Under the pieces are notes generated by a model. It saw nothing but the letters and a program-made list of their open reading frames with translations. It was not told where the DNA came from and searched no databases. Source: Toxorhynchites rutilus septentrionalis (Eukaryota > Arthropoda > Insecta > Diptera > Culicidae). Taken from it: a stretch of DNA of 64,000 nt. Of this stretch, positions 17,678 to 63,803 are shown one piece after another (within the stretch, counting starts at the first letter, position 1; each line of letters opens with the position of its first letter). Location: assembly GCF_029784135.1 (NCBI RefSeq), contig NC_073744.1:108543766-108607765 (forward strand), in the 5' to 3' direction. Both the position numbers and the translations under genes were made by a program.

Positions 17678-18125
17678 AAAATAAGTTCATTTAGGTGATA
17701 TATGATCCAGAATATTATTAGTTATATTTGTCCGTTTTGCTCATATTCCGCCGAAGTTAAGAGAGAGAATGGACCACTGAGAAAGGAAGAAACAGTAATT
17801 AGAGTTACAAACGAAAATGCCGTTACCCAATTAATAAAATTAACTTACCATGATTATTCCGAATAGGATTGATACCTCCGATGTTTCCCTAGTTGGTTCT
17901 AATAGAGCAAAAAAAAACGAATAATGATTAAGAAAACAACAAAAAAAAAAGACGGGTGGGTAATGTCGGGGACATAACCGGAGTGACGTAGGACTATACA
18001 ATGGGGATAGCTTTTGTTAAATATATTTTAAATATATTGTTTTATTTTCTTCTCCTACGTGAATACCTACCTATCTACCTGAAAAATGGATTAGTTTACT
18101 GTTTACTCTTTATGAATATGTTGAT

Positions 18126-18141
18126 GGTTCTGAAAAGAACC
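18126..18141 (-). promoter_or_regulatory. histone-type mRNA 3' stem-loop (unit 1)
   Basis: On the minus strand this reads GGTTCTTTTCAGAACC, a perfect 6-bp stem with a TTTC loop that fits the replication-dependent histone 3' stem-loop consensus. It lies downstream of the H2A remnant at 18372-18610, on the same strand. An identical copy is at 22887-22902, and a variant (GATTCTTTTCAGAACC) at 63611-63626. Confidence 0.72.
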
Positions 18142-18371
18142 TTTGGTGTTGTGTTTTTGTTATCACTCGATATTCCCATCTTGTTCGGTTAAACCTTCCT
18201 GTTTAGCTATTGCGTTTGCCACTCGCCACAGCTTTCACAGTTGGAAAATTTCTTCCCATCCAGCTTGTGACATGTTGTTCAGTAAATTACATTTAATGCG
18301 ACGTGCCGGAGAAACACTTTGCCACTCACTGAAACTAATTGTTGCCTTGATGAGCGCCGAACCGAAGCTGC

Positions 18372-18610
18372 TCTGTTCTTGATGTGGGTTTTCTAATTGT
18401 CGTGAGCAGCTTTGCAAGCCAACTCGAGCACTCCGATGGCCGAAACTCTATAATCGCTGTTAGGTATACTGGTGCTCCGGCACCAATCCGTTCGGCCTAG
18501 TTACCCTTGCGGAGCAATCAGTGAATGCGACCAACAGGGAACTGGAGACCTGCACGGTTCGAGTGAGACTTTGCCTTTCCCTTAACTTGTCCTCCTTTGT
18601 TACGTCCACG
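18372..18610 (-). pseudogene. histone H2A pseudogene (copy c, best preserved)
   Basis: Reading the minus strand gives [20 protein letters not shown], a stop, LLRKGN, a stop, then AERIGAGAPVYLTAI. This is the N-terminal tail and the start of the histone fold of H2A, nearly residue for residue. Further on, GCTCGAGTTGGC and the AARDNKKTR-coding region persist with a frame change. The start codon is lost and at least two in-frame stops occur. Functional H2A packages DNA as a dimer with H2B. This copy cannot encode it. It sits inside a family E element and points away from another histone-type stem-loop at 18845-18860. Confidence 0.9.
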
Positions 18611-18612
18611 AT

Positions 18613-18860
18613 GCCGATGCCGTACAACCACACGGGTTTACGGTTTGAAAGAAAATAAGATATTTTTTTGGGGTCCGCGTGTTTTATACTCTAGCGGTAC
18701 TCACATGATGGAGACAAATCGGCAGACTCAGCCAGAGGGGCGAGTCCAACGAGACGAACGAATGAGCGTTAAAAGGGAGCGATGGCAAAAAAATACATTC
18801 ATTACGATTTGTTCGCTCGTTGGATTCACATGCAGGCTAAAAAAGGTCCTTTTCAGGATC
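18613..18860 (+). pseudogene. possible divergent histone (H2B-like) remnant with 3' stem-loop
   Basis: Next to the minus-strand H2A remnant is a + strand segment with a TATA-like TTTTATACTCTAGCGG (18681) and a histone-type stem-loop GGTCCTTTTCAGGATC at 18845-18860. A short frame before the loop, AMAKKYIHYD near 18780-18810, has only weak resemblance to the H2B C-terminus. Divergent H2A and H2B genes sharing a promoter are the rule in insect histone clusters, so I infer an H2B-derived piece with most of its coding part deleted. The sequence itself does not prove that identity. Copies: 23374-23625, and inverted at 62487-62740. Confidence 0.45.
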
Positions 18861-19428
18861 ACAAAATTATCTTCAATCTAAAGAGTTTATTGTTTTGTTA
18901 TCACTCGATATCCCCATCTTGTTCGGCTAAAACTTTCTGTTTATCGATTGCATTTGCCATTTGCTTTCACAGTTGGAAAATTTCTTCCCATCTAGCTTGT
19001 GACATATTTTACAGTAAATTACATTCAATGGCACGTCGCATTACCACCACTCAGTATCGGATTGGAGGTAATTTTAACCTGTAATTGAACATTTGCGATG
19101 ACAGTGGTACAGTGTCGACTTTCAATGTGGGGTCATAATTTGGACCCCGAACTCTATGTTTACAAAAATGTTCAACTAAATATGTCGCATTACAGGTCCG
19201 TCCAATTAGCTAAATGTCGAGATAAGTGTAAATTACTGTACTTTCAATCTAGAAGCAATTTAAGAATTGGTGAAAATCATAAGCTCAGAACAACTGCCAA
19301 ATTCACATACTCATCAGATCCTGGCAAACAAATTATGAAAAAATCAATTTGTGTTTTATTATTATTTTGGATAATGTTTTAGAAAGCATTGAACAGTATT
19401 TCCTAAACTCTTTTTTGGAAGGTTTAAT

Positions 19429-19444
19429 GGCCCTGAAAAGCGCC
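19429..19444 (-). promoter_or_regulatory. histone-type 3' stem-loop of the second H2A remnant (unit 1)
   Basis: The minus strand reads GGCGCTTTTCAGGGCC, the histone stem-loop form with one stem mismatch. It lies downstream of the H2A remnant at 19690-19886. Copies lie at 24194-24209 (-), 61878-61893 (+) and 63012-63027 (+), each downstream of an H2A-derived block. Confidence 0.75.
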
Positions 19445-19689
19445 TTGTTATGGTTCCAATTTAGAAAACTTAGCACTCGTAGTTTTGAAAAAAACCATTT
19501 CGAACGCCCTCGATGCCGCATTGTTCTGGATTTGCCACCAAAGCAGTTTGTATAAAGAACAAACTTTTTTCTTCTGCTACCTGATGCCGTTTTGCGATTG
19601 CGTTTTTGCCACTCGCCACTCGCTGCAACTGCCTGTTGTCTTGATTCGGTGGACCGTGTGTTCTGAATGTGAATGTGTTCTGTTCCGAA

Positions 19690-19886
19690 TGCGGGTTTTC
19701 TTATCGTCGCGAGCAGCTTTGCCAGCTAACTCGATCACTTCGGCGGCCGAAACTATATAACGCCGGCTAGGTGGACTGGTACTAACGTGCTCGGCCTAGC
19801 TACCCTTGCGGGGAACTCCAGATCAACATGGTTCGAGCGGGATTTTGCCTTTCCCTTCATTTTCCTCCTTTACCATGTCCAGACAT
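19690..19886 (-). pseudogene. histone H2A pseudogene (copy b)
   Basis: The minus strand starts ATGTCTGGACATGG and then AAAGGAGGAAAATGAAGGG, matching the H2A start MSGxGKGGKxKGKAKSR with a 2-base loss in the tail. The GRIHRLL region is deleted. The reading resumes with CGCAAGGGTAGCTAGGCCGA, recognisable as the RKGNYAER codons, and then an APVYLA-like stretch. It ends with CTCGCGACGATAAGAAAACC (the ARDNKKTR region). Frameshifts make it non-coding. It differs from copy c in its deletions, so the two blocks decayed separately or were captured separately. Confidence 0.88.
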
Positions 19887-20235
19887 GGCTGCTTGGGTTG
19901 GTTTGTTGATGTGTTCTGATGCGAAACGATGTGGTGTACGGCTTGAATGAGAATGATCGTTACGGCAGCGGAGCGGGGATTTTTAAGCTGACTGGCTGGC
20001 TCGAGAATTACGCATGTGTGAGACTGCGACCAATGTTTCGTTCATTGTTTTCTTTTTCCTTTCCAATCGTGCTTCATTCTATTTCGCTGCTGCTCTGGTT
20101 GCCCGTTTTGGTCGGTACGATTTGAGGAGCACAAAATGGACCAATAAAAAATGGGCACATAGTGCATTTTGACAATGCTTGATATTTCACAATTATTCAA
20201 TTATTTATCTCAAGTAAAATGAAATGTTATATGTT

Positions 20236-23132: not shown

Positions 23133-23373
23133 TCTGTTCTTGATGTGGGTTTTCTAATTGTCGTGAGCAGCTTTGCAAGCCAACTCGAGCACTCCGATGG
23201 CCGAAACTCTATAATCGCTGTTAGGTATACTGGTGCTCCGGCACCAATCCGTTCGGCCTAGTTACCCTTGCGGAGCAATCAGTGAATGCGACCAACAGGG
23301 AACTGGAGACCTGCACGGTTCGAGTGAGACTTTGCCTTTCCCTTAACTTGTCCTCCTTTGTTACGTCCACGAT
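23133..23373 (-). pseudogene. histone H2A pseudogene (copy d, duplicate of 18372-18610)
   Basis: Near-identical duplicate of copy c produced by the 4.7-kb tandem duplication. It has the same [10 protein letters not shown] segment, the same in-frame stops and the same loss of the start codon. The associated stem-loops are at 22887-22902 (-) and 23610-23625 (+). Confidence 0.9.
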
Positions 23374-24257: not shown

Positions 24258-26200
24258 CAGGAAGTGGGTTATATCTATGGTATAACCGCAAGGGTGACGT
24301 AGGACTATCGTTGATTTAGAGATCATTTGTTTGAAGTTGAATCTGAATTCATTCTGAATGAAAGAATATTTGGAGAACTTCGAAAACGAGAGCGTTACGT
24401 TGGAGGCACAAGGTTTTATGCATCCAATATTGGATACGGAAATATCCTACTGATGGGGAAGAATAATCTTCAGAAGCTATCCTGTTGATTGCGATTGATT
24501 GAAAAATCACAAAACCTAATGTATTTGGTCATAGTGTTACATGGATAGAAAACATTAAAATAAACTCTTTCATATGAATTTAATTTTAAATTCCCAGAGG
24601 AACTGGCAGATTATTTTCAGTAACGACTAGATATTTCCACATTTTCCTCGATACTGAAAGCCCACCAGTGGTTAATGCTAACTCGATAACCATCTCTTAA
24701 TAGCACTTGATTGGAACATATTTGGTCACAGTGTGACATGGATAGAAAACATTCAAATAAACTCTTTCACATGAATGTATTTTTAAATTCCTAGAGGAAC
24801 TGGCAGATTATTTTCCGGATCTTTCTCGATGCTGAACGGCATCCAAACGGAAAGAATTCCGTGTGTGTATGTATGTGTGCAGCGGCTGCTTCGATGGTCA
24901 TCTTCTCTTCTCCTGAAGGATCGGCTTCTCTGTGCTCCTTCACAGTTTCAAACAAACTGCTTGCGTTTCACGGCAGATCTCGATCCTTCGCCGTCCAGCA
25001 CCTTCAGCAACGATGTTGTTTTGTCGATGTCCTCCCGAAAAATGAATGCATCTTACCACCAGAATATCGCTTAAGTATGCTTTTTGTGCGTGATTGAATC
25101 GAAAGAAGGCGTGGTTTACGATGACAATTTGGAAGGCAAACTAGAGGGGAATGAACTCTCTGAGCTCGGAACTTTCGGCGACTGAGCAATAGTCGATTGC
25201 GGGCGCATACAATATTGGATACGGAAATATCCTACTGATGGGGAAGAATAATCTTCAGAAGCTATCCTGTTAATTTCGATTGATTGAAAAATCACAAAAC
25301 TAAATGTATTTGGTCACAGTGTTACATGGATAGAAAACATTAAAATAAACTCTTTCACATGAATGTAATTTTAAATTCCCAGAAGAACTGGCAGATTATT
25401 TTCAGTAACGATTGGATATTTCTACATTTTCCTCGATACTGGAAGCCCACCAGTGGTTTATGCTACCTCGGTAACCATCTGTTAATAGCACTTGATTGAA
25501 ACACATTTGGTCACAGTGTTACATGGATAGAAAACTTTCAAATAAACTCTTTCACATGAATGTATTTTTAAATTCCCAGAGGAACTGGCAGATTATTTTC
25601 CGGATCTTTCTCGATGCTGAATGGCATCCAAACGGAAAGAATTCCGCGCGTGTATGTGTGTGTGTGTGTGTAGCGGCTGCTTCGAGATCTTCCCGGGGAA
25701 CCGTTTGTGGCATCACTCTCCTCCTGATGGATTCCCTTCTGGCCTAAGGTTCAAAAAAAGGCTCTTGGTGACACCGTTCATCCGCGTTTTCTAGAGGCGA
25801 ATGAACTGAAAAGCCTCTTTAATCCAACATCATCATCATCATGATCCGCGCTTTCATGATAAATGAAGAGCTTCACCACAACAGCGACAACATGCTCCAA
25901 TCGCTGTTCAATTAGAACTGAGTGGATTTCCGAGTGGCGCTCGCTTATATACCGATTGGTGATTTCAATAGCCTGTTTTGAAAGCAAATTTAAGACTATT
26001 GAAACAAGTTTTTGGATCAGAAAGTAACAAGTATAGACGCGTAGACATTTTATCTTTCGAATGAAGTGTTTATCATACCATTTCGTTCAGTTGTTTAGGA
26101 GCTATTAACGCTCAAAATCTCGGTCTCCGGCGTAACGCTTTCGTTTTCGAAACTTTGATTTTACACCCCAGTATAGAAATGAAAGACGTAGTCCTACGTC
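24258..26200 (+). mobile_element. family E element inserted in duplication unit 2
   Basis: Unit 1 gives the empty site: GTAGTTTTGA, seven A, CCATTT. Unit 2 has the same DNA split by 1943 bp. The left end is CAGGAAGTGGGTTATATC, forming a 21-nt hairpin, followed by GCAAGGGTGACGTAGGACTA. The right end is GACGTAGTCCTACGTC. The A-run counts (five, six and seven) fit a 4-bp AAAA duplication. The interior holds a direct repeat of about 785-bp period (24419 onward and 25204 onward, sharing ATATTGGATACGGAAATATC). I saw no H2A sequence and no transposase in it. Confidence 0.88.
24419..25690 (+). repeat. two-copy internal direct repeat, period about 785 bp
   Basis: The words AATATTGGATACGGAAATAT, GGGGAAGAATAATCTTCAG and GTTACATGGATAGAAAAC occur in the same order from 24425 and again from 25209. 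Each copy also contains two related sub-blocks beginning TTGGTCA and GTGACATGGATAG or GTTACATGGATAG. A (TG)n run lies at 25650-25672 in the second copy. Confidence 0.75.
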
Positions 26201-26395
26201 AAAAAACCATTTCGAACGCCCTCGATGCCGCATTGTTCTGGATTTGCCACCAAAGCAGTTTGTATAAAGAACAAACTTTTTTCTTCTGCTACCTGATGCC
26301 GTTTTGCGATTGCGTTTTTGCCACTCGCCACTCGCTGCAACTGCCTGTTGTCTTGATTGTCCACCGAACCGAATGTGTTCTGTTCCGAATGCGGG

Positions 26396-27387: not shown

Positions 27388-28639
27388 TGTAACCGTTGGT
27401 TCCAAGCGCCATTTGAGCTCCACCCAAATCCAGAAAACAGGAAATAATTTACATTGAGTCCTAATTGTCGGTTACTTGTGAGTATTCAACCCTTTTACAA
27501 ATGGTTTGAGTCCTGGGTAAGCAATACCCACCGCGTTAAACTGTCCAGTTGACCTACCGTCATCAAACGGGGTTGCCAACTGGGCAGAGAAAAAGAAATC
27601 GATTGTTTCCCCACACAAAAAGCTGGAAAAGAAAAAGCTCGGTAAATGACCAGTGCCGGCAAACGACTTAAAACATTTGAGGAAGTTAGAAGTGCGCGCC
27701 GGAACAAATCAAATTTTAAATTTTGAAGCTAGTGATAAGAAGTGGTGAAGGATTACTGATAGATGAAATAGTAGGTTAATTGAAATATGAAAGTGGAAAA
27801 AGTTAGTAACATTTGGTTTTGTTTCACAGTAAATTATACAAGAGAAAGAAAGATCAGAGGAAAAAAGAAAGAGAAGGAAAAAAGAAGCAAAAAAAAGGTA
27901 ACTTGTGGTTTGGTGTCTCTTTAAACCTAGCTCGTATCTTAATACGCTGGACAGGTCCGTCCAGCGGGCCTTTTTTTATGCGGTTTATTTCGTAGCTGTT
28001 TAGCTGCAGCAGTCATCGGCTACCAGAGGCACACGCGGACCCCACCATCTTTGTCCTGTTCGCCTACAGTATCCGCCATTGCGGGGAAACGCTGGCGAAA
28101 ACCTGCAGATGGTGTAACATCTGTAGTCTGTTCACGAGACAGCTGCACCGTTAAACCCATACCCCTAGGGATACACTGAGAGCCCACACCACAGTTACCG
28201 CAAGTATCATGCATGATCGAATGTGACGTCACGTATAAAATAAATTAAAGAAAGATAGGAAATAATGAGGAAATAGTAAAAACAGGAAGAGAAAGAGTGG
28301 GGTGGAAGAATAAAATAAATTTAAGGTTGTATAGTCTGAGAAAAAACTATAATTGTTTTCCTTCACTACGACTATCCCGTGAACCTTGTCGTCCTCCAGA
28401 CTCAAAAGGAGTCGCCAGCCCTCGTCCTCATTTAGTTGGAAGTAGGTGTGCTGACATTGCATAGCCTTTGAGCTAGAGCGGCTTGTGGGCTTAGCAGGTG
28501 GCTTCTTTGGTGCGTGAGGTGGCCTGGCAGTGCGAGACGATAGAGGAGAGCTCCTATTTGTGAGAGGTGAAGTATTTACCAGCAACCGGCTAATGAATAA
28601 GCGACCCTGAGAACCCTATCCCAATTCCTAAGAGTTACA
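27388..28639 (+). repeat. 3' LTR of the Ty3/gypsy element
   Basis: About 1252 bp, TGTAAC to GTTACA, highly similar to 10009-11262. Differences are single substitutions (for example CAGTTACCG versus CAGCTACCG near 28192) and one-base indels. It is followed by CCCT, the target duplication, and then the interrupted family E repeat. Confidence 0.92.
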
Positions 28640-29861
28640 CCCTAGCGCAAATATTTCCCTCCCGATATCTTCCCTTCTTGTTTATATTTATCATTACGGC
28701 TGTATAATTTGCAAACCCAAAACAATCGTCATTCATAGCATTTGAAAAATAAGACGATGTTGCATCGTTACAGGTCCAATGTACACGGGAGCAGATACAA
28801 ATGCGGTTTCAGCGTAGCGAAGATGCACTATTTTTACGCACGGGTTATGAAGCACGCACGTACGCACACAAATATCCATATATCAATTGCTTGAAGCAAC
28901 ACACTTATCTACGTTTTGCGCTCTTCTCAACAGAAGCCCTTTCTGTTGATATTGCCAGTCTAGATTAGGCTAGCTGTCATCCTTTGTGGAGAGAGTTTTC
29001 CTACCGTCATGCGAAACCAAATCACTGATAAAACTCCAGAACATTTATTTTCTGGGTGCGCTGACCATAGCCTAGCTTGATGATTCCCCACACAATTGTG
29101 TAGCTCAGAACCTCAGAATGATTGCAATGCCAGAAACATCAGCGAGTGAGTAATTTGATCGCGTCCACAGCTCAATCCGAAACGAAGACATGTGATGACG
29201 CAAAATAAGGAAGAACATGCGATATTCATTGCTTTGAATACAGAACGAAACTGAAAGTTTGCCTTCTTTTCTTGCTTGTTGAATTAGAGAGACTTTAAAC
29301 TTATTCAGTTCATTCGTCTCTAACCTTCAAAAAAGCCCTTGGAAAACTTAACTTCATCCATCATACTACTCCTCCACCCCCATTGCCTTGAGAAAGAATT
29401 CGATCCATTGCCGTCCAGCTCGCCCAGCGACGATGTTGTTCAGTCGATTTCCTCACGAAGAATGAACTCGAGGCAACTTTATGCTCGAGGCAAATATTCC
29501 CATTCGTTCTTCTTCTTTTCCTTTGTTCACGAAGACTTTACATCTTACGGTTTCCCCTTCGTTGCTCGTCGATAAGTTGCTCGTTATTGACAGCTCTGTT
29601 CGGGAAAACACACAAATGGACAGAACAAATGTATGAGGAAATGGGAATGCTTTCAATTTTCATCAATTCAAACCATATACAGGATTGTAATGTATAGCAT
29701 ATCAAACAAATCTTAGGGAATTTCCAATTTGTTTTGTTTGTAAATCGCCAAAAGCCAAAATCCATTCGCAGCAAAAATAGTTATCAACATTAACTTTATT
29801 TCATAAAAACGTGACCTGTTTTCTGATTTGACACCCTGAATGAAAGACGTAGTTCTACGTC
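28640..29861 (+). mobile_element. family E repeat, right segment
   Basis: Continuation of 9720-10008 beyond the Ty3/gypsy insertion. It ends GACGTAGTTCTACGTC followed by AAAAA, the standard right terminus. It contains a module near 29400-29450 (GCCGTCCAGCTCGCCCAGC, then ACGATGTTGTTCAGTCGATT) that recurs in the copies at 55027 and, inverted, near 61140-61200, linking them as one family. I saw no histone coding sequence in this member. Confidence 0.78.
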
Positions 29862-29996
29862 AAAAATCCAATTAAAAAACTATAAGAACTACGTAATTTT
29901 TGTCAGATAATAAAATATAGGACATTGTTCAAGCTTTCATTAAAAATAGCAAACTAATTTTCAAAAAAATTAAATCAACGTCAACAATCAGCAGTC

Positions 29997-36888: not shown

Positions 36889-37406
36889 TGATGTTTCCTT
36901 CGTTATGTCCCCGTTTCATATCCCTCCTATCCGATCGATAAACTTTTACTTAGTCGCGGCAATACATACACACACTCTTTACAGATGCACGGGCCGAAGG
37001 TTGTGCAGTCCACTGATCATTCAACAAGAGCCAAAGGTTGTACCGCTCATGACAACTCTACACGAACTGATGATTGCGCCGGCTAGTGACCATTCTATCC
37101 TGGATTCCTCGAGTCGAGAAAGACGCACCACGCTAGATATGGGGTACAGACTAGGGGGGCGTTGCTGATTAATGGTCAGCTGCATCCCAATAGGAAGTAT
37201 CCCGTGTCGGGCACACGTACAGAGCATCGAAGACTGCGACATACCAATTATGAAAACACTTGTAATACTAACCTCGAATCAACCGCGTGTAATCGGTTAC
37301 ATATTACTAACATAGTTGTAAGCAAACATTGTCAAAATATTGAACTCCCGGCCCCGTTAGGCTGACGCCATATGAGCCTTAATAAAATATATATTGTGGA
37401 TAAAAA
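36889..37406 (+). other. 3' UTR of the LINE
   Basis: Non-coding sequence continuing from ORF2 to the insertion point of the next family E element. It contains AACCGCGTGTAATCGGTT near 37279, matched by a similar word (CCGCGAGTAATCGGTTT) in the 3' ends of the related LINEs near 30409 and 42381. This supports common ancestry of the three. Confidence 0.65.
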
Positions 37407-38743: not shown

Positions 38744-38769
38744 AAAAAAAAAATAACATCATTAATAAA

Positions 38770-42525: not shown

Positions 42526-42539
42526 ATCTCCATAGAGTG

Positions 42540-43025
42540 GTTTTTCAGTCTTTCCGACTCAAGAGTTAGTACTTGGTTTGCGATATTCGATATTTCGAGT
42601 AAACGATTCCTAATTTTCTCGTTGATTAGAATTTGTTTGTTATTCTGATGAATGAGGGAATTCAGTGAAGAGTTTATCAAACGAAGGTCATCAGCATCGG
42701 GATTCCCGGCGATCCACTTCCAAATGGTTCCTACTGTATCCCATCTCCGGTGTCTTCTGAGCGATTTCAGCTTAAGATACGTTTCTTTTAATTTATAATT
42801 TTTTATATCAATTAATTCATATAGTGGGTTTACAAAAGGATTATTCTGTATTTCGTAATTGACTTTTTCAATAGTAGTTCCAATTTGATCTATGTTTATA
42901 GGATGCATTATTCTCACATAGCCTGTTTTTATTTTAGCTACACCTAATGGTATAATGGCAAGCGAATTATTTGTTAAGTCATGAATCTGGAGGTGTGATC
43001 GTGCTACTGACACGAACAGGGCCAA
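42540..43025 (-). pseudogene. errantivirus env, N-terminal part (copy 1)
   Basis: The minus frame from 43025 begins with a short hydrophobic start followed by about 160 residues with helical, Leu/Ile/Asn-rich character. A basic RRHRR sequence at about residue 90 is followed by a G-rich hydrophobic stretch, the layout of a furin-type cleavage site next to a fusion peptide in F-like proteins. It ends at the LINE target duplication (42539). The short gap after integrase suggests that env comes from a spliced or downstream message, as in relatives. Confidence 0.82.
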
Positions 43026-43058
43026 TCTGAAAATGGAATTAAAGATTTGGATTGATTC

Positions 43059-44544
43059 TTAAGTTTGTTTTATGAATTTTTCTTCTTGTGTATCAATAAC
43101 ATACGTATTATAATCTTCTCTGTAATTGTGATTTTTTTGTATCCAAAAGTAGATAGTAGAAATATCATATGTCTTTTCAAAGGCTGTTGAGTTTGAAGTG
43201 TAACTTCTATAATGTTTTTCTGGTATTTTTTCTGCATTATTTTTGTGTATGTTTTGAATCCTTTCCAAATTCTTTTCTCTTGCTTTAAGGAAATCTTCTC
43301 TTGGAAGTGCGTTAACATTAATAGCTTGGTATACATTTCGAGGTGTGTCTTCTATTACTGAATGAACTGAATTATTATACCTATGTGCGGTCAGTTGCAT
43401 TAAATCATTGATTGAAATATCTGTATGTTCATGTCGTATACATCTTGTTATTTCTCTAATTGTCGAATGGCAGCGTTCAACCTGACCATTCGTTTCAGAC
43501 CTGTGAACAGGTGTCTTGAAAATTGTGATTCCGAGATTTTTAATTTGTTGTTCTATTGTATTAGACACAAAAGTGCTTTCGTTGTCAATTACTATATTAG
43601 CTGGAACGTCCCAGTCATATATCAATTGCATTAGAACCTCTTTTACATCAACTATAGATTTTGATTTTATAGGTCTTATTTTAAGGAATTTGGAAAATTT
43701 GTCTAATGATGATATAAACAAGAAGTTTTGGTTGTACATAAATATGTCGATATGAACTATATCAGCGGGATATGTTGGTACAGGAGTTTTGACGGGTATA
43801 AATTTTTGAGGATTTCTGGCATATTTCTCGGTTTTGCAAATTTCACATGTCGATACATATTGCCTTATCATTTTCTTCATTCCAGGGAAATAATATTTTT
43901 TTTATCATTTGTAATGAATTTTCATTCGCATTCCTATGAGCAAATTCATGAAATTTTATAACTTTTTCTAATTGATCTTCTTCGTCATTTAAATCTTCAA
44001 CTTGAATTTGTGAAAATCTAGCTCTAACTAGTTTTGGATTGTAATTTTCTTTATAAATCTCTTGGATAATAGCCATAACTGGTTCATCTGTCAATATCCC
44101 ATTGAGAATGCCAGGGATTAAAAATTGTTGTAGTTTCCTAGTTAAAAACTCCTTTGAAAATTGAGGTTCTGTGAATTTATGTCTTTCGTATTTTTCAAAT
44201 GGTATAATTAATTCATATGAGGGAGTATTTCCAATTTTGAAAATTAACTGATTCTTAAAAACATTGATTGGAGCTTCTGTACTCGGAATGTAGGATGAAT
44301 CATCATCATCAGATGAATGTTGGGTAGGAGTAAGGGAATAAATTTGAATACGGGAAAGCGCGTCGGCTACAATGTTGGATTTGCCAGGCTTGTACAGCAT
44401 TTCATGATCGTGTTCTTCGATAAAGGCCTTCCATCGTTTCAGCTTAGCGTTGTTATTTTTGGGGGATAGGGTGAAGGTTAAATGTAAGTGATCCGTGTAA
44501 ATTTTTATCTTAGAGCCATAAATGAAGTTGCGCAGGGTACTCAA
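43059..44544 (-). pseudogene. errantivirus pol: RNase H end and integrase (copy 1)
   Basis: The minus frame 44544-43843 covers the RNase H tail (IKIYTDHLHLTF, then KPGKSNIVADALSRI) and the start of integrase. The next frame, 43880-43059, has a zinc-finger end (CEICKTEK), then IVHIDIF, VIDNESTF and the Glu motif SETNGQVERCH, all three catalytic residues of a DDE integrase. A frameshift in a T-run near 43890 separates them. This copy lies within tandem duplication unit 1. Confidence 0.87.
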
Positions 44545-45067
44545 CGCCCATACGACTGCTAAGAGTTCCTTTTCATTGGTCGCATAATTTTCTTCCGATT
44601 TTGATAAAGTACGTGATATGAAAGTAATTGGCCTTTCCCCTGCAGGGAATTATTGAGATAGTACTGCACCTAACGCTATATTGGATGCGTCAGTTGTAAG
44701 AATGAAGGGTTTTTCGAAGTCGGGAAATGCTAAGACATCTTCAGAAGAAAGAACGTCTTTCAAAGTTTGAAATGCTTTTATGGCTTCTTCATCGAATTTA
44801 ATTGGGAAATTTTTAGATTGCGTTTTAGGAATCTGGCGCTAGCCATCTTCCCCTCTTAAGAATTTTGTTAAGGGTTTTGCAGTTTTTGCATAATTCTTAA
44901 CAAAACGTCTGTAATACCCAGAGAGACATAAGAATGCACGAAGATCTCTCAAATTCTTGGGCTGTGGATAATTCTGAATGCACTCTACCTTTTTCATATT
45001 CGGTTTTAGACCATTCTTTGAAATAATGAATCCTAAAAATTCCACTTCGGTATTCAGAAATTCAAGA
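44545..45067 (-). pseudogene. errantivirus pol: RT thumb/connection fragment (copy 1)
   Basis: The minus strand from 45060 reads EVEFLGFIISKNGLKPN and RDLRAFLCLSGYYRRFVKNY, which is the RT thumb. Stops near 44840 and 44655 precede the RNase H region. The catalytic palm is not in this unit because the duplication breakpoint is at about 45067. Confidence 0.85.
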
Positions 45068-45641
45068 TTCGTATTAATCTTGCCGACAGCAATCTTTGTG
45101 TTTGTGGCCACGGTTACCACGACATCGAGCACGTTGTTTGGTCGTGCGAGTTGTATCTTGTCGCCAGATCGAATTTAGAAAACTCCCTCAGGGCTAGAGG
45201 AAGACAGCCCAATGTGCCGGTGAGAGATGTGTTGGCTCGGTTAGACCTTGATTACATGTCCCAAATCTATATTTTCCTTAAAGCTATCGATGTTCGTGTG
45301 TGATTATCCTTATATCCTTATATCCTTTGCGTGCAATTGGTCCCCTTGCTACAAACAGTAGAATAAGTTGAAATGTAAATACACAATAGATATACGAATA
45401 TATTTAAGAATTGAGTGTGTGAGATTATCATTATTGTAACAATTTCCTTATATCCCATCCTTTTCCTGAACAAATATGTCACTACTAAACTCGAGTAGAC
45501 CGCGAGTAATCGGTTTTCTACCTTACTTACCTTAGATTTAGAAAATGTTTATGTATAGTAATAAAAATATAATTAAGAATTCGGCTCCTTTAAACTTATG
45601 TAACTGAGCCTGTAAAAATAAACGAATTTAATAAAAAAAAA

Positions 45642-46142
45642 AATCTCCATAGAGTGGTTTTTCAGTCTTTCCGACTCAAGAGTTAGTACTTGGTTTGCGA
45701 TATTCGATATTTCGAGTAAACGATTCCTAATTTTCTCGTTGATTAGAATTTGTTTGTTATTCTGATGAATGAGGGAATTCAGTGAAGAGTTTATCAAACG
45801 AAGGTCATCAGCATCGGGATTCCCGGCGATCCACTTCCAAATGGTTCCTACTGTATCCCATCTCCGGTGTCTTCTGAGCGATTTCAGCTTAAGATACGTT
45901 TCTTTTAATTTATAATTTTTTATATCAATTAATTCATATAGTGGGTTTACAAAAGGATTATTCTGTATTTCGTAATTGACTTTTTCAATAGTAGTTCCAA
46001 TTTGATCTATGTTTATAGGATGCATTATTCTCACATAGCCTGTTTTTATTTTAGCTACACCTAATGGTATAATGGCAAGCGAATTATTTGTTAAGTCATG
46101 AATCTGGAGGTGTGATCGTGCTACTGACACGAACAGGGCCAA
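45642..46142 (-). pseudogene. errantivirus env, N-terminal part (copy 2)
   Basis: Duplicate of 42540-43025. Its reading frame runs out into LINE 3' UTR sequence (to 45573), giving an artificial tail. The cleavage-type RRHRR sequence and the following hydrophobic stretch are present. No C-terminal env follows in this unit. Confidence 0.85.
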
Positions 46143-46175
46143 TCTGAAAATGGAATTAAAGATTTGGATTGATTC

Positions 46176-47661
46176 TTAAGTTTGTTTTATGAATTTTTCT
46201 TCTTGTGTATCAATAACATACGTATTATAATCTTCTCTGTAATTGTGATTTTTTTGTATCCAAAAGTAGATAGTAGAAATATCATATGTCTTTTCAAAGG
46301 CTGTTGAGTTTGAAGTGTAACTTCTATAATGTTTTTCTGGTATTTTTTCTGCATTATTTTTGTGTATGTTTTGAATCCTTTCCAAATTCTTTTCTCTTGC
46401 TTTAAGGAAATCTTCTCTTGGAAGTGCGTTAACATTAATAGCTTGGTATACATTTCGAGGTGTGTCTTCTATTACTGAATGAACTGAATTATTATACCTA
46501 TGTGCGGTCAGTTGCATTAAATCATTGATTGAAATATCTGTATGTTCATGTCGTATACATCTTGTTATTTCTCTAATTGTCGAATGGCAGCGTTCAACCT
46601 GACCATTCGTTTCAGACCTGTGAACAGGTGTCTTGAAAATTGTGATTCCGAGATTTTTAATTTGTTGTTCTATTGTATTAGACACAAAAGTGCTTTCGTT
46701 GTCAATTACTATATTAGCTGGAACGTCCCAGTCATATATCAATTGCATTAGAACCTCTTTTACATCAACTATAGATTTTGATTTTATAGGTCTTATTTTA
46801 AGGAATTTGGAAAATTTGTCTAATGATGATATAAACAAGAAGTTTTGGTTGTACATAAATATGTCGATATGAACTATATCAGCGGGATATGTTGGTACAG
46901 GAGTTTTGACGGGTATAAATTTTTGAGGATTTCTGGCATATTTCTCGGTTTTGCAAATTTCACATGTCGATACATATTGCCTTATCATTTTCTTCATTCC
47001 AGGGAAATAATATTTTTTTTATCATTTGTAATGAATTTTCATTCGCATTCCTATGAGCAAATTCATGAAATTTTATAACTTTTTCTAATTGATCTTCTTC
47101 GTCATTTAAATCTTCAACTTGAATTTGTGAAAATCTAGCTCTAACTAGTTTTGGATTGTAATTTTCTTTATAAATCTCTTGGATAATAGCCATAACTGGT
47201 TCATCTGTCAATATCCCATTGAGAATGCCAGGGATTAAAAATTGTTGTAGTTTCCTAGTTAAAAACTCCTTTGAAAATTGAGGTTCTGTGAATTTATGTC
47301 TTTCGTATTTTTCAAATGGTATAATTAATTCATATGAGGGAGTATTTCCAATTTTGAAAATTAACTGATTCTTAAAAACATTGATTGGAGCTTCTGTACT
47401 CGGAATGTAGGATGAATCATCATCATCAGATGAATGTTGGGTAGGAGTAAGGGAATAAATTTGAATACGGGAAAGCGCGTCGGCTACAATGTTGGATTTG
47501 CCAGGCTTGTACAGCATTTCATGATCGTGTTCTTCGATAAAGGCCTTCCATCGTTTCAGCTTAGCGTTGTTATTTTTGGGGGATAGGGTGAAGGTTAAAT
47601 GTAAGTGATCCGTGTAAATTTTTATCTTAGAGCCATAAATGAAGTTGCGCAGGGTACTCAA
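46176..47661 (-). pseudogene. errantivirus pol: RNase H end and integrase (copy 2)
   Basis: Duplicate of 43059-44544 with the same frameshift in a T-run. All three integrase catalytic residues are visible (VHIDIF, VIDNEST, GQVERCH). This is the copy directly connected to the RT and gag of the provirus. Confidence 0.88.
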
Positions 47662-53209: not shown

Positions 53210-53210
53210 A

Positions 53211-55026: not shown

Positions 55027-56666
55027 TTATAGGAGGTTGTGTTCAAGACAGGACCGCATTGTTGACGTAGAACTACGCTGTGGTTTAATTCAAATCGCTT
55101 GTTCATATCTTCGGATATTACTTTATAATGCAACGGAAATTTCTAAATAACCATTTTACCAGTTTGGTCGCCCTGAAATGTTTTTTTTATTGTAGAATTA
55201 TTTGACGATAATTGTTTGATGATTCATTCTTGTGCTCACAGAACAGTACTTACTCGAGATAAGCGCAGCTGTCATCCTTAGTGGAGAAAGTTTTGCTACT
55301 AACAAGCGAAACCAAATCACATACAAAATTTCAGAACAACATTTACTTTCTTGGTGACTAAATAAACGAAACAAACTCTATCTGTTAATCTCAACAACCT
55401 CGAAAAGAGTAGCACTCCTTCATTATGATCAAGATTAGCGCAAATGTAATCCTAGTTGAGAGCAGTTTTGCAACTGTCACGCTAGCCCAAATACATTAAT
55501 AACTTAATATAACTTATTGAATAACTTGGTATTCTCCAAATAATTTTTTGGTGCACAACCTGAACACCTGCTATGCCGTAGCCTCAGTTGAATGCATTGA
55601 GGACAGAAAACAAACAATGTTAACTGCTTGGAAAAAGACTGAATATTTGCCTCCATTACCAAATACCCAAGCGTAAATATTTCCCTCCCGATATCTCCCC
55701 TCCTTGTTTATATTTATCATTACGACTAAAGTTTCAGCGTAGCAAAGATGCACTATTTTTACGTACGGGTTATGAAGCACGCACGTACGCACACAAATAT
55801 ACATAAATCGATGGCTTGGAGATATATCGATGGCTTGAAGAAACTAAATATACACACACTTATCTCCGTTTTGCGCTCAGAAGCCTTTTCTGTTAATATT
55901 GCCAGTCTAGATTAGCTTAGCTGTCATCCTTTGTGGAGCGAGTTTTCCTACCGTCATGCGAAACCAAATCACTGACAAAATTCCAGAACATTCATTTTCT
56001 TGGTGAGCCGTCAATAGCCTAGTGATTGTCATTGCTTTGAATACAGAACGATACTGAAAGTTTGGCTTCCTTGCTTGAGACTTTAAACTTCTTCAGTTCA
56101 TTCGTCTCTAACCTTCAAAAAGGCCCTTGGAAAACTTTTTTTTCCATCATATTACTCCTCCACCACGCCTTGAGAGAGGCATTCGATCCCTCGCCGTCCA
56201 GCTCGTCCAACTCACCCAGCAACGATGTTGTTCAGTCGATTTCCTCAGGAAGAATGAAAGTTTGCCTCAGCGAGATCCACTATTTATACTCTAGGCAAAT
56301 ATTCCCCTTCCTTTTTCTTCTTTTCCTTTGTTCACGGAGACTTAACATCTTACGATTTCCCCTTCGTTGCTCATCGATAAGTTGCTCGTTATTGACATCT
56401 CTGTTCGGGAAAGCACTCAAATGGACAGAACAAATGTATGGAGAAATGGGAATGGTTCCAATTTTCATCAATTTAAACCATATATAGACTATGGAGTTGT
56501 AATGTATAGCATATAAAACAAATCTTAGGGAATTTTCGATTCGTTTAGTATGTAAATAGCCAAAATCCGTTCGCGGCAAAAATAGTTAATAACGTTGACT
56601 TTATTTCATAAAAACGTGACCTGTTTTCTGATTTGGCACCCTTAATGAAAGACGTAGTTCTACGTC
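55027..56666 (+). mobile_element. family E element (1.6 kb) in the GPCR intron
   Basis: The left end has a degraded 21-nt hairpin (GGTTGTGTTC to AGGACC) followed by GCATTGTTGACGTAGAAC. The right end is GACGTAGTTCTACGTC followed by AAAA. It matches 9720-10008 plus 28640-29861 along its length, making it the empty-site counterpart of the Ty3/gypsy insertion there. It carries the GCCGTCCAGCTCGTCCAAC and ACGATGTTGTTCAGTCGATT module (56196-56241). No histone or transposase sequence seen. Confidence 0.78.
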
Positions 56667-57306
56667 AAAAGATACAAATTGTGAATAAAAGTAGTAGAGG
56701 AAAAACGACAGAAGAAGTATAATAAAACAGGATAATAGAACAAAAGATAAGAGGAAAGAGGAGAGAAGGAGAAGAAGAAAAAAAGATCTGTTAAGCGGTC
56801 TTTTTTTCACATATTGCGTTCTTCCTAGCTTTAAAAATTGTTCAGCTTCATCAGCCATTTTGTCTGCATTCAATCGAAATCGGAATCGAAGAGGGCTTGA
56901 TGCGCTGAAACAGATATTATGTTCGGAAGACAGCTTACCTGGACACAGGAAAAGAGAACAAGAAGAAATGTGACGTCAAAAAAGGATTATTAATTAATTT
57001 AAGGAAAGGAAAATAGGGATAGTTGAAAGAAAACAGGGACAGGTGAAAAGACAATAAGAAGAGAATAAAAGAATAAAGTGAGAAGAAACGTTGTATGTAA
57101 TAAATAAAACATAAATGTGTTCTTCTTCTACCACCATCCTTTTTTTTGCTCTAAAGGAATCGTCAACCCTCGCTCTCAATCAGTCGGAAGTGCTAGTACT
57201 GCACCGCCTTTGATCGCATCTAGTGTGTGGGCCTAGTAGGTGGCTTCTGAGGTGCGAGAGGTTCCCTGGAGGTACAAAATATTTGAAAGGGCTCCTGCTT
57301 GAGAGA

Positions 57307-59223
57307 AGACGGATTTCACGCCAACTCGTCTTAGGAGTTGGCAGCACTATATCAGATTGCAGTGAAACGTTTTGGGTGTGAAGATATTGGTCATTTAAGC
57401 AACTTTGCATACTTGAAATGTTCCAAAAATAATTGAACCACTTTTTGAAAAGGGCCAAAGTTTTTTTAAATTTTTTTTTCAAAAATTTCTATCTCAAAAT
57501 CTATAAGACTTACAACATTTTGATCAAAGAAGAAATTGTAGGAAATTGTTCAAATTTTCATAAGAAAATATTTAAAAATTTATGGTTTTTAAATTACACT
57601 AAAAAAAATTTTTTCCAAAAACTAAAGTTCAATTTTCTCAAAAACGAATTTTTTTTGAAATTCTCAAAAAAATTGTGTGAATAGCCTGTACAATTAACAA
57701 CAAGTCGTCCATACATTCAAAGATGGGCACTTTTGCAGGAAAAAAGTTTTTCTAACAACAACTTTTTTATATTTTCTTTGAAAAATATACAACTTATCCT
57801 AATTTTGTTTAAAGTCATGATAGCAATATAGTTTAATCGACAAAGTTTTAGATCTTGTTAAAATATAAACTTTTGTCGAAGACGTCAACTTTCCATCTTT
57901 TATAGTTTGAAGAATATAAGTCAGTTTTGTATGAAGACTCCTGAAAAAAATAATGTTTCGCTCGAAACATTTTTGTGTGTAAATTCTCATGTTTAACATG
58001 CTCTTGACATGTTTCTAAATAGAGAAAAGTTTGCAGAGCATTCAAAATGCGATAATTTATACATAAAAATGTAACAAATTGAACATTAGTAGCATTTTTT
58101 CGAAAAAAACATGAACAAGTTTTTGTTTGAAAAACTTTTTCCATGTAAATGTGCCCATCGTCCGATGTATGGAAAACTTGTTGGAAATTTTAAGGGCTAT
58201 TTATATCTATTTTTTTCAGAATTTTAAAAGCATATGTTTGCGAAAAAAATTAATTTTAATTCTCAAAATATTTTTTTTCAATGAAATTTTTTTTCTCAAA
58301 AAATTCTTTGATAATTTTTAAAGAAAACCAAAATAATTTCCTACATTTCATTCTTTGACTAAAATTTTGTAGGTCTGATCGATTTTTTTTTTGTAGTTTT
58401 TCGAACAAAAACTTGTTCATGTTTTTTTCGAAAAAATGCTACTAATGTTCAAGTTTTTACATTTTTATGTATAAATTACCGCATTTTGAATGCTCTGCAA
58501 ACTTTTCTCTATTTAGAAACATGTCAAGAACATGTCAAACATGAGAATTTACACACAAAAATGTTTCAAGCAAAACATTATTTTTTTCAGGAGTCTTCAT
58601 ACAAAACTGACTTATATTCTACAAACTATAAAAGATAGAAAGTTGACGTCTTCGACAAAAGTTTATATTTTAACAAGATCTAAAACTTTGTCGATTAAAC
58701 TATATTGCTATCATGACTTTAAACAAAATTAGGATAAGTTGTATTTTTTTCAAAGAAAATATAAAAAAGTTGTTGTTAGAAAAACTTTTTTCCTGCAAAA
58801 GTGCCCATCTTTGAATGTATGGACGACTTGTTGTTAATTATACGGGCTATTCACACAATTTTTTTTGAGAATTTAAAAAAAATACGTTTTTGAGAAAATT
58901 GAACTTTAGTTTTTGGAAAAAAAAATTTTTAGTGTAATTTAAAAACAATAAATTTTTAAATATTTTTTTATGAAAATTTGAACGATTTCCTATAAATTCT
59001 TCTTTGACCAAAATATTGTAAGTCTTATACTTTTTAAGATATTAATTTTTGAAAAAAAATTAAAAAAAACTTTGGCCCTTTTAAAAAAGTAGTCTAATTA
59101 TTTTTGGAATATTTCAAGTATACAAAGTTGCTTAAATGACCAATATCTTTACACCCAAAACGTTTCACTGCAATCTGAAATGGTACTGCCCATGACCAGT
59201 TGAGTTGGCGTGAAATCCGTCAG
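57307..59223. repeat. 1.9-kb foldback (near-perfect long inverted repeat)
   Basis: AGACGGATTTCACGCCAACT at 57307 is mirrored by AGTTGGCGTGAAATCCGTCA ending at 59223. CAGTGAAACGTTTTGGGTGT near 57361 is mirrored near 59150-59169. GTCGTCCATACATTCAAAGA near 57704 is mirrored near 58809. The two arms of about 0.95 kb meet around 58270-58290. The arms are AT-rich, differ by scattered substitutions, and are non-coding. The element interrupts the solo LTR relic. A transcript would form a very long hairpin. Confidence 0.88.
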
Positions 59224-59843: not shown

Positions 59844-59845
59844 TA

Positions 59846-60691: not shown

Positions 60692-61422
60692 GACGTAGGA
60701 CTACGTCTAACCGGAAGATATAGGGGTGAAATGGAAATCTAGGCACTGAACAAGTAGGAAAAAATGCAAGATTTGGAACGCTTATAACTCGAGCATTTCT
60801 CAATAGATCGCAAAGGTTTTTGCATCAATAGATAGGAAATATATCTACGCATCTATCATAATGAATTTCTTGAGATAAATAATTGAATAATTGTGAAATA
60901 TCAAGCATTGTCCAAATGCACTATGTGCCCATTTTTGATTGGTCCATTCTGTGCTCCTCAAATCGTACCGACCAAAACGGGCAACCAGAGCAGCAGCGAA
61001 ATAGAATGAAGCACGATTGGAAAGGAAAAAGAAAAAAATGAACGAAACATTGGTCGCAGTCTCACACATGCGTAATTCTCGAGCCAGCCAGTCAGCTTAA
61101 AAATCCCCGCTCCGCTGCCGTAACGATCGTTCATTCTTTGTGTGGACACCGACTGGACAACATCGTTGCTGGACGAGCTGGACGGCGAGGGATCGAGTGC
61201 CTTTCTCAAGGCAAGAGGGCGGAGGTGGTAGCGCTGGAGTAGAGTAGTAGAGTAGAGTAGAGTTTTCAAAGGCCTTTCTCAAGGCTAGAGACGAATGAAC
61301 TGCAAAAGTTTAAAGTCTCTATAATACAAGACCTTCCTTCCTTCCGTAACGATCATGCTCATCGAAACCGTACACCACATCATTTCGCATCACATCACAT
61401 TAACAAACCAACACAAGCAGCC

Positions 61423-61760
61423 ATGTCTGGATATGACAAAGGAGGAAAAGTGAAGGGAAAGGCAAAATACCGCTCGAACCGTGTTAGCCTGCGATTCCCC
61501 GTAGGTGCATTCGCCAATTACTCCGCAAGGGTAGCTAGGCCGAGCGCGTTAGTTCCAGTACACCAGTCCACCTACCGTTATAAAGTTTCGGCCGCCGAAG
61601 CGATCGAGTTGGCTGGCAAAGCTGCTCGCGACGATAAGAAAACCCGCATTCAGAACAGAACACATTCGGTTCGGTGGAAATCACGACAACAGGCAGTTGC
61701 AGCGAGTGGTGAGTGGCAAACGCAATCGCAAAACGGCAGCAGGTAGCAGAAGAAAAAAGT
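61423..61760 (+). pseudogene. histone H2A pseudogene (copy e)
   Basis: The open frame starts ATGTCTGGATATGAC and reads MSGYDKGGKVKGKAKYRSNR, then LRFPVG, an almost intact H2A N-terminal tail. After a deletion of the GRIHRLL region the frame is shifted through the RKGNYAER codons and returns with ELAGKAARDDKKTRIQNRTH, the alpha-2 end and following loop. The C-terminal acidic-patch and docking parts are scrambled. The frame stays open for 107 codons but would not fold as H2A. A histone-type stem-loop follows at 61878-61893. Confidence 0.92.
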
Positions 61761-61877
61761 TTGTTCTTTATACAATCTGCTTTGGTGGCAAATCCAGAAC
61801 AAGGCGGCATCGAGTGCGTTCGAAATGGTTTTTTTCAAAACCACGAGTACTAAGTTTTCTAAAATTCCATAAAACAC

Positions 61878-61893
61878 GGCGCTTATCAGGGCC
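61878..61893 (+). promoter_or_regulatory. histone-type 3' stem-loop after H2A copy e
   Basis: GGCGCTTATCAGGGCC, a histone 3' stem-loop with one stem mismatch, lies about 120 bases after the H2A block, in the same orientation. This retained 3'-end element shows that the captured segment included the 3' UTR. Confidence 0.75.
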
Positions 61894-62486
61894 ATTAAAC
61901 CTTTCAAAAAAGAGTTTACGAAATATAGTTCAATGCTTTCTATAATAATATCCAAAATAATAATAAAACACAAATTGATTTTTTCATAATTTGTTTGCCA
62001 GGATCTGATGAGTTTGTGGATTTGGCAGTTGTTGTGAGCTTGTTGATAGTTGGGGACTTTCCTGATTATTCAATTTTCACCAATTCTTAAATTGTTTCCA
62101 GATTGAAAATACAGTAATTTACAATTAGTTCGACATTTAGCTAATTGGTCGGTCATGTAATGCGACATATTTAGTTGGACATTTTTGTAAACATAGATCC
62201 AAATCATGACCCCACATTGAAAGTCGACACTGTACCACTGTCATCGCAAATGTTCAATTGCAGGTTAAAATCGCCTCCATTGCGACAATGAGTGGTGTTT
62301 CGTCACGTCGCATTAAATATAATTTACTGTACAACATGTCACAAGCTGGATGGGAAGAAATTTTCCAACTGTGAAAGCTGTGGCGAGTGGCAAACACAAT
62401 CGCTCAACAGGAAGGTTTAGCCGAACAAGATGGGGATATCGAGTGATAACAAAACAATAAACTCTTTAGATTAAAGATAATTTTGT

Positions 62487-62502
62487 GATCCTGAAAAGGA
62501 CC
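62487..62502 (-). promoter_or_regulatory. histone-type stem-loop of the divergent partner
   Basis: The minus strand reads GGTCCTTTTCAGGATC, pointing away from the H2A block at 62751. It is the inverted counterpart of 18845-18860 and 23610-23625. Confidence 0.65.
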
Positions 62503-62750
62503 CTTTTTAGCCTGCATGTGAATCCAACGAGCGAACAAATCGTAATGAATGTATTTTTTTTGCCATCGCTGCCTTTTAACGCTCATTCGTTCGTCTCGTT
62601 GGACTCGCCCCTTTGGCTGAGTCTGCCGATTTGTCTCTATCCTATGAGCGTGTACCGCTAGAGTACAAAAGGCGCGGATCCGCTGAAAAATATATCATTC
62701 TCTTTCAAACCGTAAATCAGTGTGGTTGTATGGCATCGTTTCACATCACA

Positions 62751-62900
62751 TCGCATCAACGAATTTGTGCCGGAGCACCAGTATACCTAATAGCGGTTAA
62801 AGAATTTCGGCCGCCGGAGTGCTCGAGTTGGCTTGCAAAGCTGCTCACAACAATAAGAAAACCCGCCTACAGAACAGAGCACATTCGGTTCGGAGGCAAC
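62751..62900 (+). pseudogene. histone H2A pseudogene (copy f, partial)
   Basis: CAGAPVYLIAVKEF (62766 region) matches the H2A GAGAPVYLAAVMEY segment. The next codons, read one frame over, give the ELACKAAHNNKKTR stretch corresponding to ELAGNAARDNKKTR. The N-terminal tail coding is missing in this copy. A stem-loop GGCGCTTTTCAGGGCC follows at 63012-63027. Confidence 0.87.
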
Positions 62901-63011
62901 AACTAGTTTCAGCAAGTGGCAAACGCAATCGCAAAACGGAAGCAGGTAGAAGAAGGAAAAAGTTTGTTTATACAGACTGCTTTGGTGGCAAAACCAGCCA
63001 CCGTAAAACAC

Positions 63012-63027
63012 GGCGCTTTTCAGGGCC
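63012..63027 (+). promoter_or_regulatory. histone-type 3' stem-loop after H2A copy f
   Basis: GGCGCTTTTCAGGGCC in the same orientation as the H2A block. A second loop of another type (GATTCTTTTCAGAACC) is at 63611-63626 on the + strand. Confidence 0.75.
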
Positions 63028-63803
63028 ATTAAACCTTTCAAAGAAGAGTTATTGAAAGTTTTTCACAATACCAATGCATTCAAAGGGACATAATATGACA
63101 TATAATATAAACTGATTTATTTTGTTTATGCTTGATCTTGAACTTATTGGTGGTTGGGGTGTTTTAATATGATCATTCAGTTTACACAAACCCATGCATG
63201 GTTCCCGAATTGAAAGTGGCTTCAAATTACAACACATTGTATGCATGATGGCATTCACGAATTTTCTCGGTAGCAAGAACTGCTTTCTTTGGTTGATAAC
63301 TGATGTTGAAAATTGACTGACGTTACATCTGCATTGTGTAGGAACATAACTAAGGAGCAACATGATGAGCTATGTATTTCCTGCTGCTCTGTTCTTATTT
63401 TAAAGGACTTTAATCCGAAGGTCATCCGTCCCTGTATTTACTGTTGGTTTTTCAGAAAGCTTATAGCTCGCTTATTTCTCGACGGATCGTAGAGTTCGTC
63501 TCCAAAACCTCGGTTCTTTTTCATGTTTTATTTACTTTGTTTGCGGAAACTACAAATCTTACAATTCATTGAGAAAGTTTGTAAAAAAAACGCAAAAACA
63601 CAACACCAAAGATTCTTTTCAGAACCCCCAACATGTTCATAAAGAGTAAACAGTAAACTAATCCATTTTTCAGGTAGATAGGTAGGTATTCACGTAGGTG
63701 AAGAAAATAAAACAATATATTTAAAATATATATTTAGCAAAAGCTGTCCCTTTTGTACAGTCCTACGTCACTCCGGTTATGTCCCCGACATTACCCACCC
63801 GTC

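Follow-up and report, generated by a model that had tools for sequence, protein, structure and literature searches.

Fragments of the gene for histone H2A lie in different places and orientations within the 64,000-nt window of Toxorhynchites rutilus septentrionalis DNA analysed here (NC_073744.1, positions 108,543,766 to 108,607,765), which raises the question of how they came to be there and what carries them. The original prediction, made from the letters of the window, was that a transposable-element family, E, had captured histone sequence and then spread with it, and this proposal is supported by a search of the whole genome. By their structure, the E elements are HINEs, i.e. non-autonomous rolling-circle Helentrons. 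The complete explanation, in which HINEs with a captured, internally duplicated and broken H2A were amplified with a HelA-type Helentron as likely partner, is given a probability of about 0.93. What the prediction did not contain is the HINE/Helentron type, the single origin of both blocks of an element, a Helentron as probable autonomous partner, stem-loops of the histone 3′ type and the precedent in Culex.

Insect H2A was compared with the window by tblastn, and all six H2A-derived blocks of the original prediction were recovered at their places, spread over three E element copies (C1, C2 and C3). On the reverse strand, block H2A-a lies at 19688..19886 in C1 and at 26388..26586 in C2, and block H2A-b at 18381..18610 and 23142..23373, respectively. 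On the forward strand, C3 carries H2A-a at 61423..61760 and H2A-b, whose N-terminal third is gone, at 62757..62960. The best matches were those at 18607-18431 and 23368-23192 (E-value 1e-26, 78% over 59 aa), followed by 61423-61650 (3e-18), 19810-19688 and 26510-26388 (1e-7), and 62810-62869 (0.003); a PDB H2A was also matched by 61423-61701 (1.5e-15). Beyond the E elements, H2A found nothing better in the window than a match with an E-value of 2.2. Protein searches of the window for H2B, H3 and H4 gave best E-values of 0.15, 1.4 and 0.27, none of them a recognisable gene, and no similarity to H1 at E≤1. H2A-a of C3 forms a 107-aa frame in which H2A residues 1-78 are followed by a tail without H2A similarity. 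This frame was not recognised by Pfam above cut-offs, and a protein-set search with it returned ordinary H2A relatives (3 of 17 candidates, 48-54%) and no indication of further E copies.

Copy C3 (60692-63803) was used as query against the animal's own genome (902,557,243 bases in 514 contigs). The H2A composite was found with the same termini at many places, as the original prediction had asked to be checked: at least 130 matches of 86-100% identity lie on both strands of the chromosome-sized genome contigs C1, C2 and C3. At least 25 places besides the query, counted from the matches listed, reach the last or last-but-one base of the 3′ end of E. Eight copies, picked for length, were fetched, and every one of them displayed both termini in one orientation, T runs, H2A inside and differing flanks. 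The view that an old, degenerate histone cluster left these blocks behind, with E termini as later or chance flanks, would account for traces of several cluster genes (H2A, a promoter shared with H2B, several 3′ stem-loops), but it is refuted for practical purposes by the two termini in all eight fetched copies, by the recurrence of the same composite amid different flanks on three large contigs and by the location of one composite inside a Tc1-like frame. The terminus patterns of E gave no match in IMG/VR viral contigs or in prokaryote genomes.

The three copies in the window differ in completeness. C3 (60692..63803, forward strand) is a full-length HINE seated in a Tc1-like transposase gene, with both termini and with the two halves of the Tc1-like frame as flanks. 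C2 (22712..27107, reverse strand) also has both termini and is split by a second HINE of a sister subfamily, Cin (24259..26205, reverse strand). C1 (17951..20223, reverse strand) is the partner of C2 in a local tandem duplicate of about 4.7 kb, and it has no 5′ terminus because this end was lost at the duplication breakpoint. The claim that all blocks lie inside E termini is therefore correct for C2 and C3, while C1 keeps the 3′ terminus only. C2 and C3 are bounded by TTTTGACGTAGGACTACGTC at the 5′ end and by AGTCCTACGTCACTCCGGTTATGTC..GACATTACC..CCCGTC-T(n) at the 3′ end. Read in the sense of H2A, the 5′ side is TTTT-GACGTAGGACTACGTC and the 3′ side is AGTCCTACGTCAC-TCC-GGTTATGTC-ccc-GACATTACC-CACCCGTC-T(n).

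As defined in the passages available from PMC4067079, HINEs display palindromic subterminal inverted repeats (subTIRs) of 12-15 bp, the 5′ one located 2-4 nt from the 5′ end, an inverted subTIR at 38-60 bp and a palindrome at 8-35 bp from the 3′ end, T-rich insertion without target duplication but with a variable number of border T's, and a partner Helentron more than 95% identical over the shared sequence. A T run followed by GACGTAGGACTACGTC, a 16-nt near-palindrome, was found in C2, C3, Cin and the eight fetched copies. In C3, the inverted subTIR stands about 39 nt and the hairpin about 13 nt from the 3′ end, T run counted. The 5′ border runs count 2 to 11 T's in the 10 E copies that have this end (10/10), and the 3′ ones at least 5 in all 11 copies (three in the window and eight fetched). 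The filled Cin site has flanks of A5 and A6 where the empty site in C1 (position ~19487) has an A7 tract; the net gain of only four A/T indicates insertion in T-rich sequence without target duplication. At C3, one flank finishes with ..NASKS and an A-rich stretch and the other, past an A run, is ITKIKQHLNLNVS, where an unbroken relative has SKSLAQIKQNLKLDVS; the split frame thus reads SKS / ITKIKQH against SKSLAQIKQ in the relative P0122. The Tc1 flank pieces were not recognised by Pfam above cut-off.

Canonical Helitrons start with 5′ TC, end with 3′ CTRR, insert between A and T and have no endonuclease. E does not belong to them, as its ends differ and the probable partner Helentron has an endonuclease. 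Terminal inverted repeats (TIRs) with a fixed target-site duplication, the marks of a TIR transposon or a miniature inverted-repeat transposable element (MITE), were not found either, with a caveat for CGAAAATAAA at C3. A cut-and-paste TIR element of the MITE or Pack type as carrier of H2A is accordingly highly improbable: inverted copies of GACGTAGGACTA do occur in the ends and the repeated CGAAAATAAA at the Tc1 site is readable as a target duplication, but the 3′ inverted repeat is subterminal and followed by a hairpin, the empty site of Cin gains A/T only, and the 3′ end is common to E and a Rep/helicase Helentron. C1 and C2 are placed between pol and the 3′ long terminal repeat (LTR) of a gypsy element. 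The two LTRs share 98.8% identity along 1,092 nt or more, so that either E moved after the gypsy insertion or gypsy brought E along. The closest relative of this pol is 69% identical, and the best named relatives are from mosquitoes (Aedes albopictus, Toxorhynchites, Wyeomyia).

The donor of the captured sequence was sought by pairwise comparison with three functional H2A genes. Promoter, 5′ untranslated region (UTR) and start of the coding sequence of H2A-b in C2 are 78.6% identical over 485 nt to the H2A of L015, a functional histone cluster on the chromosome-sized genome contig C3 (chromosome-3 type). Block H2A-b of C1 is 70.1% identical to the same gene and 60.9% and 60.7% to the two others. 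The aligned promoter corresponds to the H2A-H2B intergenic region of L015, to which the captured promoter and 5′ UTR in element copy C3 (62517..62738, forward strand) is 82.6% identical over 230 nt. In each of the six blocks, MEYLAAE shows a 1-nt deletion and an N is replaced by K; codon 39 is TAG in the five blocks that cover it (5/5). The shared stop, deletion and missense change show that both blocks of an element come from one broken H2A, which underwent duplication within the element before spreading. Judged from these sequences, the six blocks all descend from a single, already broken H2A nearest to the chromosome-3-type cluster. The original prediction was right that four of the copies come from a tandem duplication, but its two distinct blocks per element are, given the shared lesions, not distinct captures. 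An intact H2A is present in none of the 11 E copies (three in the window, eight fetched). It is thus quite improbable that the H2A copies are kept because the element profits from an H2A-like protein or from an RNA directed at H2A; the promoter and 3′ stem-loop remnants alongside H2A and the 107-aa frame of C3 would fit such a use, but the shared stop and deletions and the 0/11 intact copies do not.

A partner was searched for with the Pfam domain Helitron_like_N, for which 150 of 1,313 candidates were scored. At least 132 matches were obtained in the own genome and none in 14 control genomes. In HelA (L044), a frame of 1,674 aa contains the domains of Rep, PIF1 helicase and endonuclease (PF14214, PF05970, PF03372). 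HelB (L045), of 1,564 aa, has the same three domains, the PF03372 score of 24.2 being just under the cut-off of 24.5. Both HelA and HelB combine Rep, PIF1 helicase and a C-terminal endonuclease in one protein; HelC is known from C-terminal pieces only. Nine further Helentron tails were fetched, of which six held a Rep end; the other three (L050, L054 and L055) lacked both a stem-loop and a Rep end that matched. The families comprise HelA (L044, L047), HelB (L045, L048, L049, L053) and HelC (L051, L052). The Rep proteins of HelA and HelB are 67% identical over the whole protein, and the 57-92 C-terminal residues of HelC are 59-62% identical to HelA and 61-63% to HelB. The end of L044 is 96.4% identical to that of C3 over 224 aligned nt, and the end of L045 is Cin-like (84.6%). 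In a search of IMG/VR for Rep relatives, 158 stretches fitted a pattern and none was confirmed.

A few points weigh against the HINE explanation with HelA as partner. A search of the 1.8 kb upstream of the HelA open reading frame did not find the 5′ end of the element, the identity of HelA with E is that of the 3′ tail, and the genome search for E scored only 40 of 8,928 candidates. Homopolymers make the exact element ends uncertain by several bases. C3 has CGAAAATAAA on either side, and a 10-bp duplication, if this is what the repeat represents, would be contrary to a Helentron; since joining at CGAAAATAAA breaks the Tc1 frame and the SKS-to-ITK join keeps it, the repeat is read as chance. 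On the strength of the shared tail, HelA is the likely supplier of the transposition protein for E, and another Helentron with the same tail could also be the partner.

The tail shared with HelA contains a histone-type signal. The Rfam model of the histone 3′ stem-loop (RF00032, gathering score 34 bits) gave 12 matches in the window at E≤5, all of them within C1, C2 or C3, and two of them reach the gathering score. These two, with 41 bits each, are the stem-loop with downstream element in the 3′ tail of C1 (18102..18146, reverse strand; tail 96.3% identical to L044) and its counterpart in C2 (22863..22907, reverse strand). The same stem-loop in C3 (63606..63650, forward strand) has lost one pair and scores 24.8 bits, below the gathering score. 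The 41-bit stem-loop was considered as the captured H2A's own and ruled out, as it is part of the tail shared with HelA. Among the E copies, its stem is complete in 3/11 (C1 and C2 being one duplicate) and reduced in 6/11, and in 2/11 no such stem was found in the 260 nt next to the 3′ subTIR. All other matches are below the gathering score. Degenerate stem-loops follow H2A-a in C3 (61873..61918, forward strand), C1 (19404-19449) and C2 (24169-24214, both reverse strand), with 20.3-24 bits over the set, and a second weak match lies just upstream in C3 (61822-61866, forward strand). Another degenerate stem-loop follows H2A-b in C3 (63007..63052, forward strand, 25 bits). On the opposite strand, a stem-loop adjoins the captured promoter at the place expected for H2B (62461..62507, reverse strand, in C3; 18840-18886 in C1 and 23605-23651 in C2, forward strand; 19.2-23.7 bits). 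With the 3′ end of H4 in L015 it shares 78% identity across 51 nt, and it stems from a neighbouring captured histone gene, either H4 or H2B.

A stem-loop with AAAGAGT element was located in sense orientation, past the Rep stop and before the end of the element, in all three Helentron families, with 40.5 bits in HelA, 38.1 in HelC and 22.9 in HelB, the last one below the gathering score. Like the 3′ ends of replication-dependent histone mRNAs (RF00032), it displays a six-pair stem, a TTTC/TTTT loop, AC-rich flanks and a purine-rich AAAGAG downstream element. Unlike them, it follows a Rep/helicase/endonuclease frame, 223-475 nt past the stop, and its fourth pair is U-A, U-A and U-G in the three Helentrons, where all 17 host stem-loops compared (L012-L015) have C-G. 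That this pair differs from every host stem-loop and yet stays paired argues for one old recruitment rather than fresh captures. Six of six pairs are formed in seven of the eight Rep-bearing copies, which are near-identical within a family and thus represent three lineages; L053 (354-aa open frame) has five pairs, and L051 (417 aa) and L052 (266 aa) keep six. In an alignment of ten hand-picked rows (3 Helentron and 7 host), which are few and related, the loop T's are invariant, an AAAGAGT-type element is present and 60/60 cells pair; three pairs are changed on both sides, as in 12 of 500 shuffles, and the covariation score was reached by none of the 500. Local alignment of the unmasked 3′ UTRs placed the best stretch in the stem-loop region for HelA-HelC (22, shuffle maximum 19) and HelB-HelC (21, equal to the shuffle maximum), and at the element 3′ end for HelA-HelB (24 versus 18). 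After masking of the stem-loop and removal of the last 105 nt, scores fell to 11, 11 and 15; the 95% points were 14 and the maxima 16-18, so that only HelB-HelC stood above the 95% point. Stem, loop and AAAGAGT are kept in the three families while the other 3′ UTR sequence is hardly alignable. Neither AATAAA nor ATTAAA occurs between stop and element end in HelB and HelC. In the single Helitron without endonuclease match that was inspected, L046, a stem-loop of this kind was not found at E≤1. Intron-like GT...AG stretches were seen by eye between Rep stop and stem-loop at ~6894-6980 of L045 (HelB) and ~190-272 of L051 (HelC).

We propose that the Rep message may be cut after the stem-loop like a replication-dependent histone mRNA. 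In this case, Helentrons would have recruited stem-loop and U7-type element as the 3′ end of their Rep/helicase/endonuclease message, and the captures of H2A and H3 would follow from homology, a scenario to which even odds are given. H2A looks like the passenger and the stem-loop like the working part. The distance of the stem-loop from the Rep stop, the AATAAA of HelA, the low HelB score and the few lineages speak against histone-type processing of the message. A rival reading, somewhat less probable but a serious one, takes the stem-loops of the Rep-bearing Helentrons as leftovers of captured histone genes without a Helentron role. Histone fragments are frequent cargo here, the distance from the Rep stop is large, and HelA has one AATAAA before the stem-loop, i.e. 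between it and the stop, and one after. Moreover, the complete stems of HelC come from matches with the two short open frames given above, and the seven complete stems are not seven independent cases. On the other side, leftovers would hardly keep stem, loop and AAAGAGT in families whose Rep proteins are 59-67% identical, nor all pairs in 7/8 Rep-bearing copies as compared with 3/11 E copies, nor a deviant fourth pair that still pairs.

Under the HINE explanation, a HINE acquired one genomic histone segment, in which H2A was accompanied by its promoter and 3′ signals; the donor was a chromosome-3-type cluster. The H2A part was then duplicated inside the element, and the HINE proliferated on the three large chromosomes, taking the already broken H2A along as a passenger, while the Rep/PIF1 helicase/endonuclease of HelA (L044) presumably supplied transposition. 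The capture itself may have used homology between the stem-loop of the donor histone gene and that of the Helentron tail, by recombination or template switching. As the homology between E and HelA starts 18-26 nt upstream of the stem-loop, the histone segment may have been joined to the Helentron tail there.

Histone capture by a Helentron as such is already known from Culex, and the HINEs with H2A and H3 extend this phenomenon. The sole match joining Helentron, histone and Culex in an open-licence literature search was PMC4067079. According to the passages available, Helentron-Cq-32A of Culex quinquefasciatus carries H4-superfamily and H15 fragments in eight copies, and histone capture by a Helentron is stated to be undocumented in other organisms (PMC4067079). 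It resembles E in its mosquito host, multiplied histone fragments with stops and frameshifts, palindromic subTIRs, 3′ stem-loop and T-rich borders, but has H4-superfamily and H15 sequence where a HINE with H2A, promoter and 3′ signals is found here; the same passages mention no histone 3′ stem-loop. HINE/DINE-1 elements share with E the non-coding nature, subTIRs, 3′ stem-loop, T-rich targets and a tail common with the partner Helentron (PMC4067079, in the same passages), whereas E carries a gene fragment and the 5′ end of its partner was not found. At the level of listed records, the open-licence literature gave no link of Helitrons, Helentrons or transposons with histone stem-loop, SLBP, U7 or downstream element. 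Histone capture by Helentrons and HINEs of mosquitoes is thereby extended to H2A and H3 and probably to another genus than Culex; the capturing family is amplified and has a probable partner. If the proposed 3′ end is real, the transposase message would lack poly(A), be limited to S phase and require both SLBP and the histone locus body; such a cell-cycle-coupled end may tie Helentron activity to DNA replication and would explain the repeated encounters of Helentrons with histone genes. To our knowledge, a transposon that times its activity to DNA replication via a histone-type 3′ end would be new.

Solitary PF00125 matches were considered as further E-borne H2A and rejected, since the 20 fetched proved to be 19 H3 and one H2A/H2B pair. 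H3 genes, mostly decayed, are the cargo of a second HINE family, whose ends are Cin-like (L016-L034). In the right orientation and within set limits, the 5′ region of the HINE was found at 12 of the 19 H3 loci, the 3′ end at 11, both at 8 and neither at 4. L031 resembles an intact, intron-bearing ordinary H3 gene. Another intact H3 gene stands alone on genome contig C3 (L011, 5431-5838); no histone stem-loop match was found at its locus, and it adjoins Cin-type HINE sequence that holds a nested D-type copy, 98.6% identical to the D element of the window.

Further HINE subfamilies are present in the window at 37401-38750, 55030-56675, 28600-29870 and 9742-9982, as copies or pieces (D with 95-nt tandem repeats, F1, F2 and a 3′ fragment). 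Several HINE families have in common a module of about 200 nt (61130-61330, 29279-29467 and 56077-56258, with parts at 24979-25046 and 38257-38310), which contains a TATA in F1, CCTTTCTCAAGG hairpins and AGAGACGAATGAACTG and for which an Rfam search returned no family. In element copy C3, it stands between H2A promoter and 5′ UTR, by eye with 11-bp repeat flanks, and it is partly found among functional histone genes of genome contig C113 (L012 1433-1517, L013 2126-2192). Elsewhere in the window, an inverted repeat at 57443-59088 has arms of 694 nt, 94% complementary and spaced by 258 nt, and LTR-retrotransposon-like reading frames stand in direct repeat at 41950-47661, with an offset of 3,117 nt.

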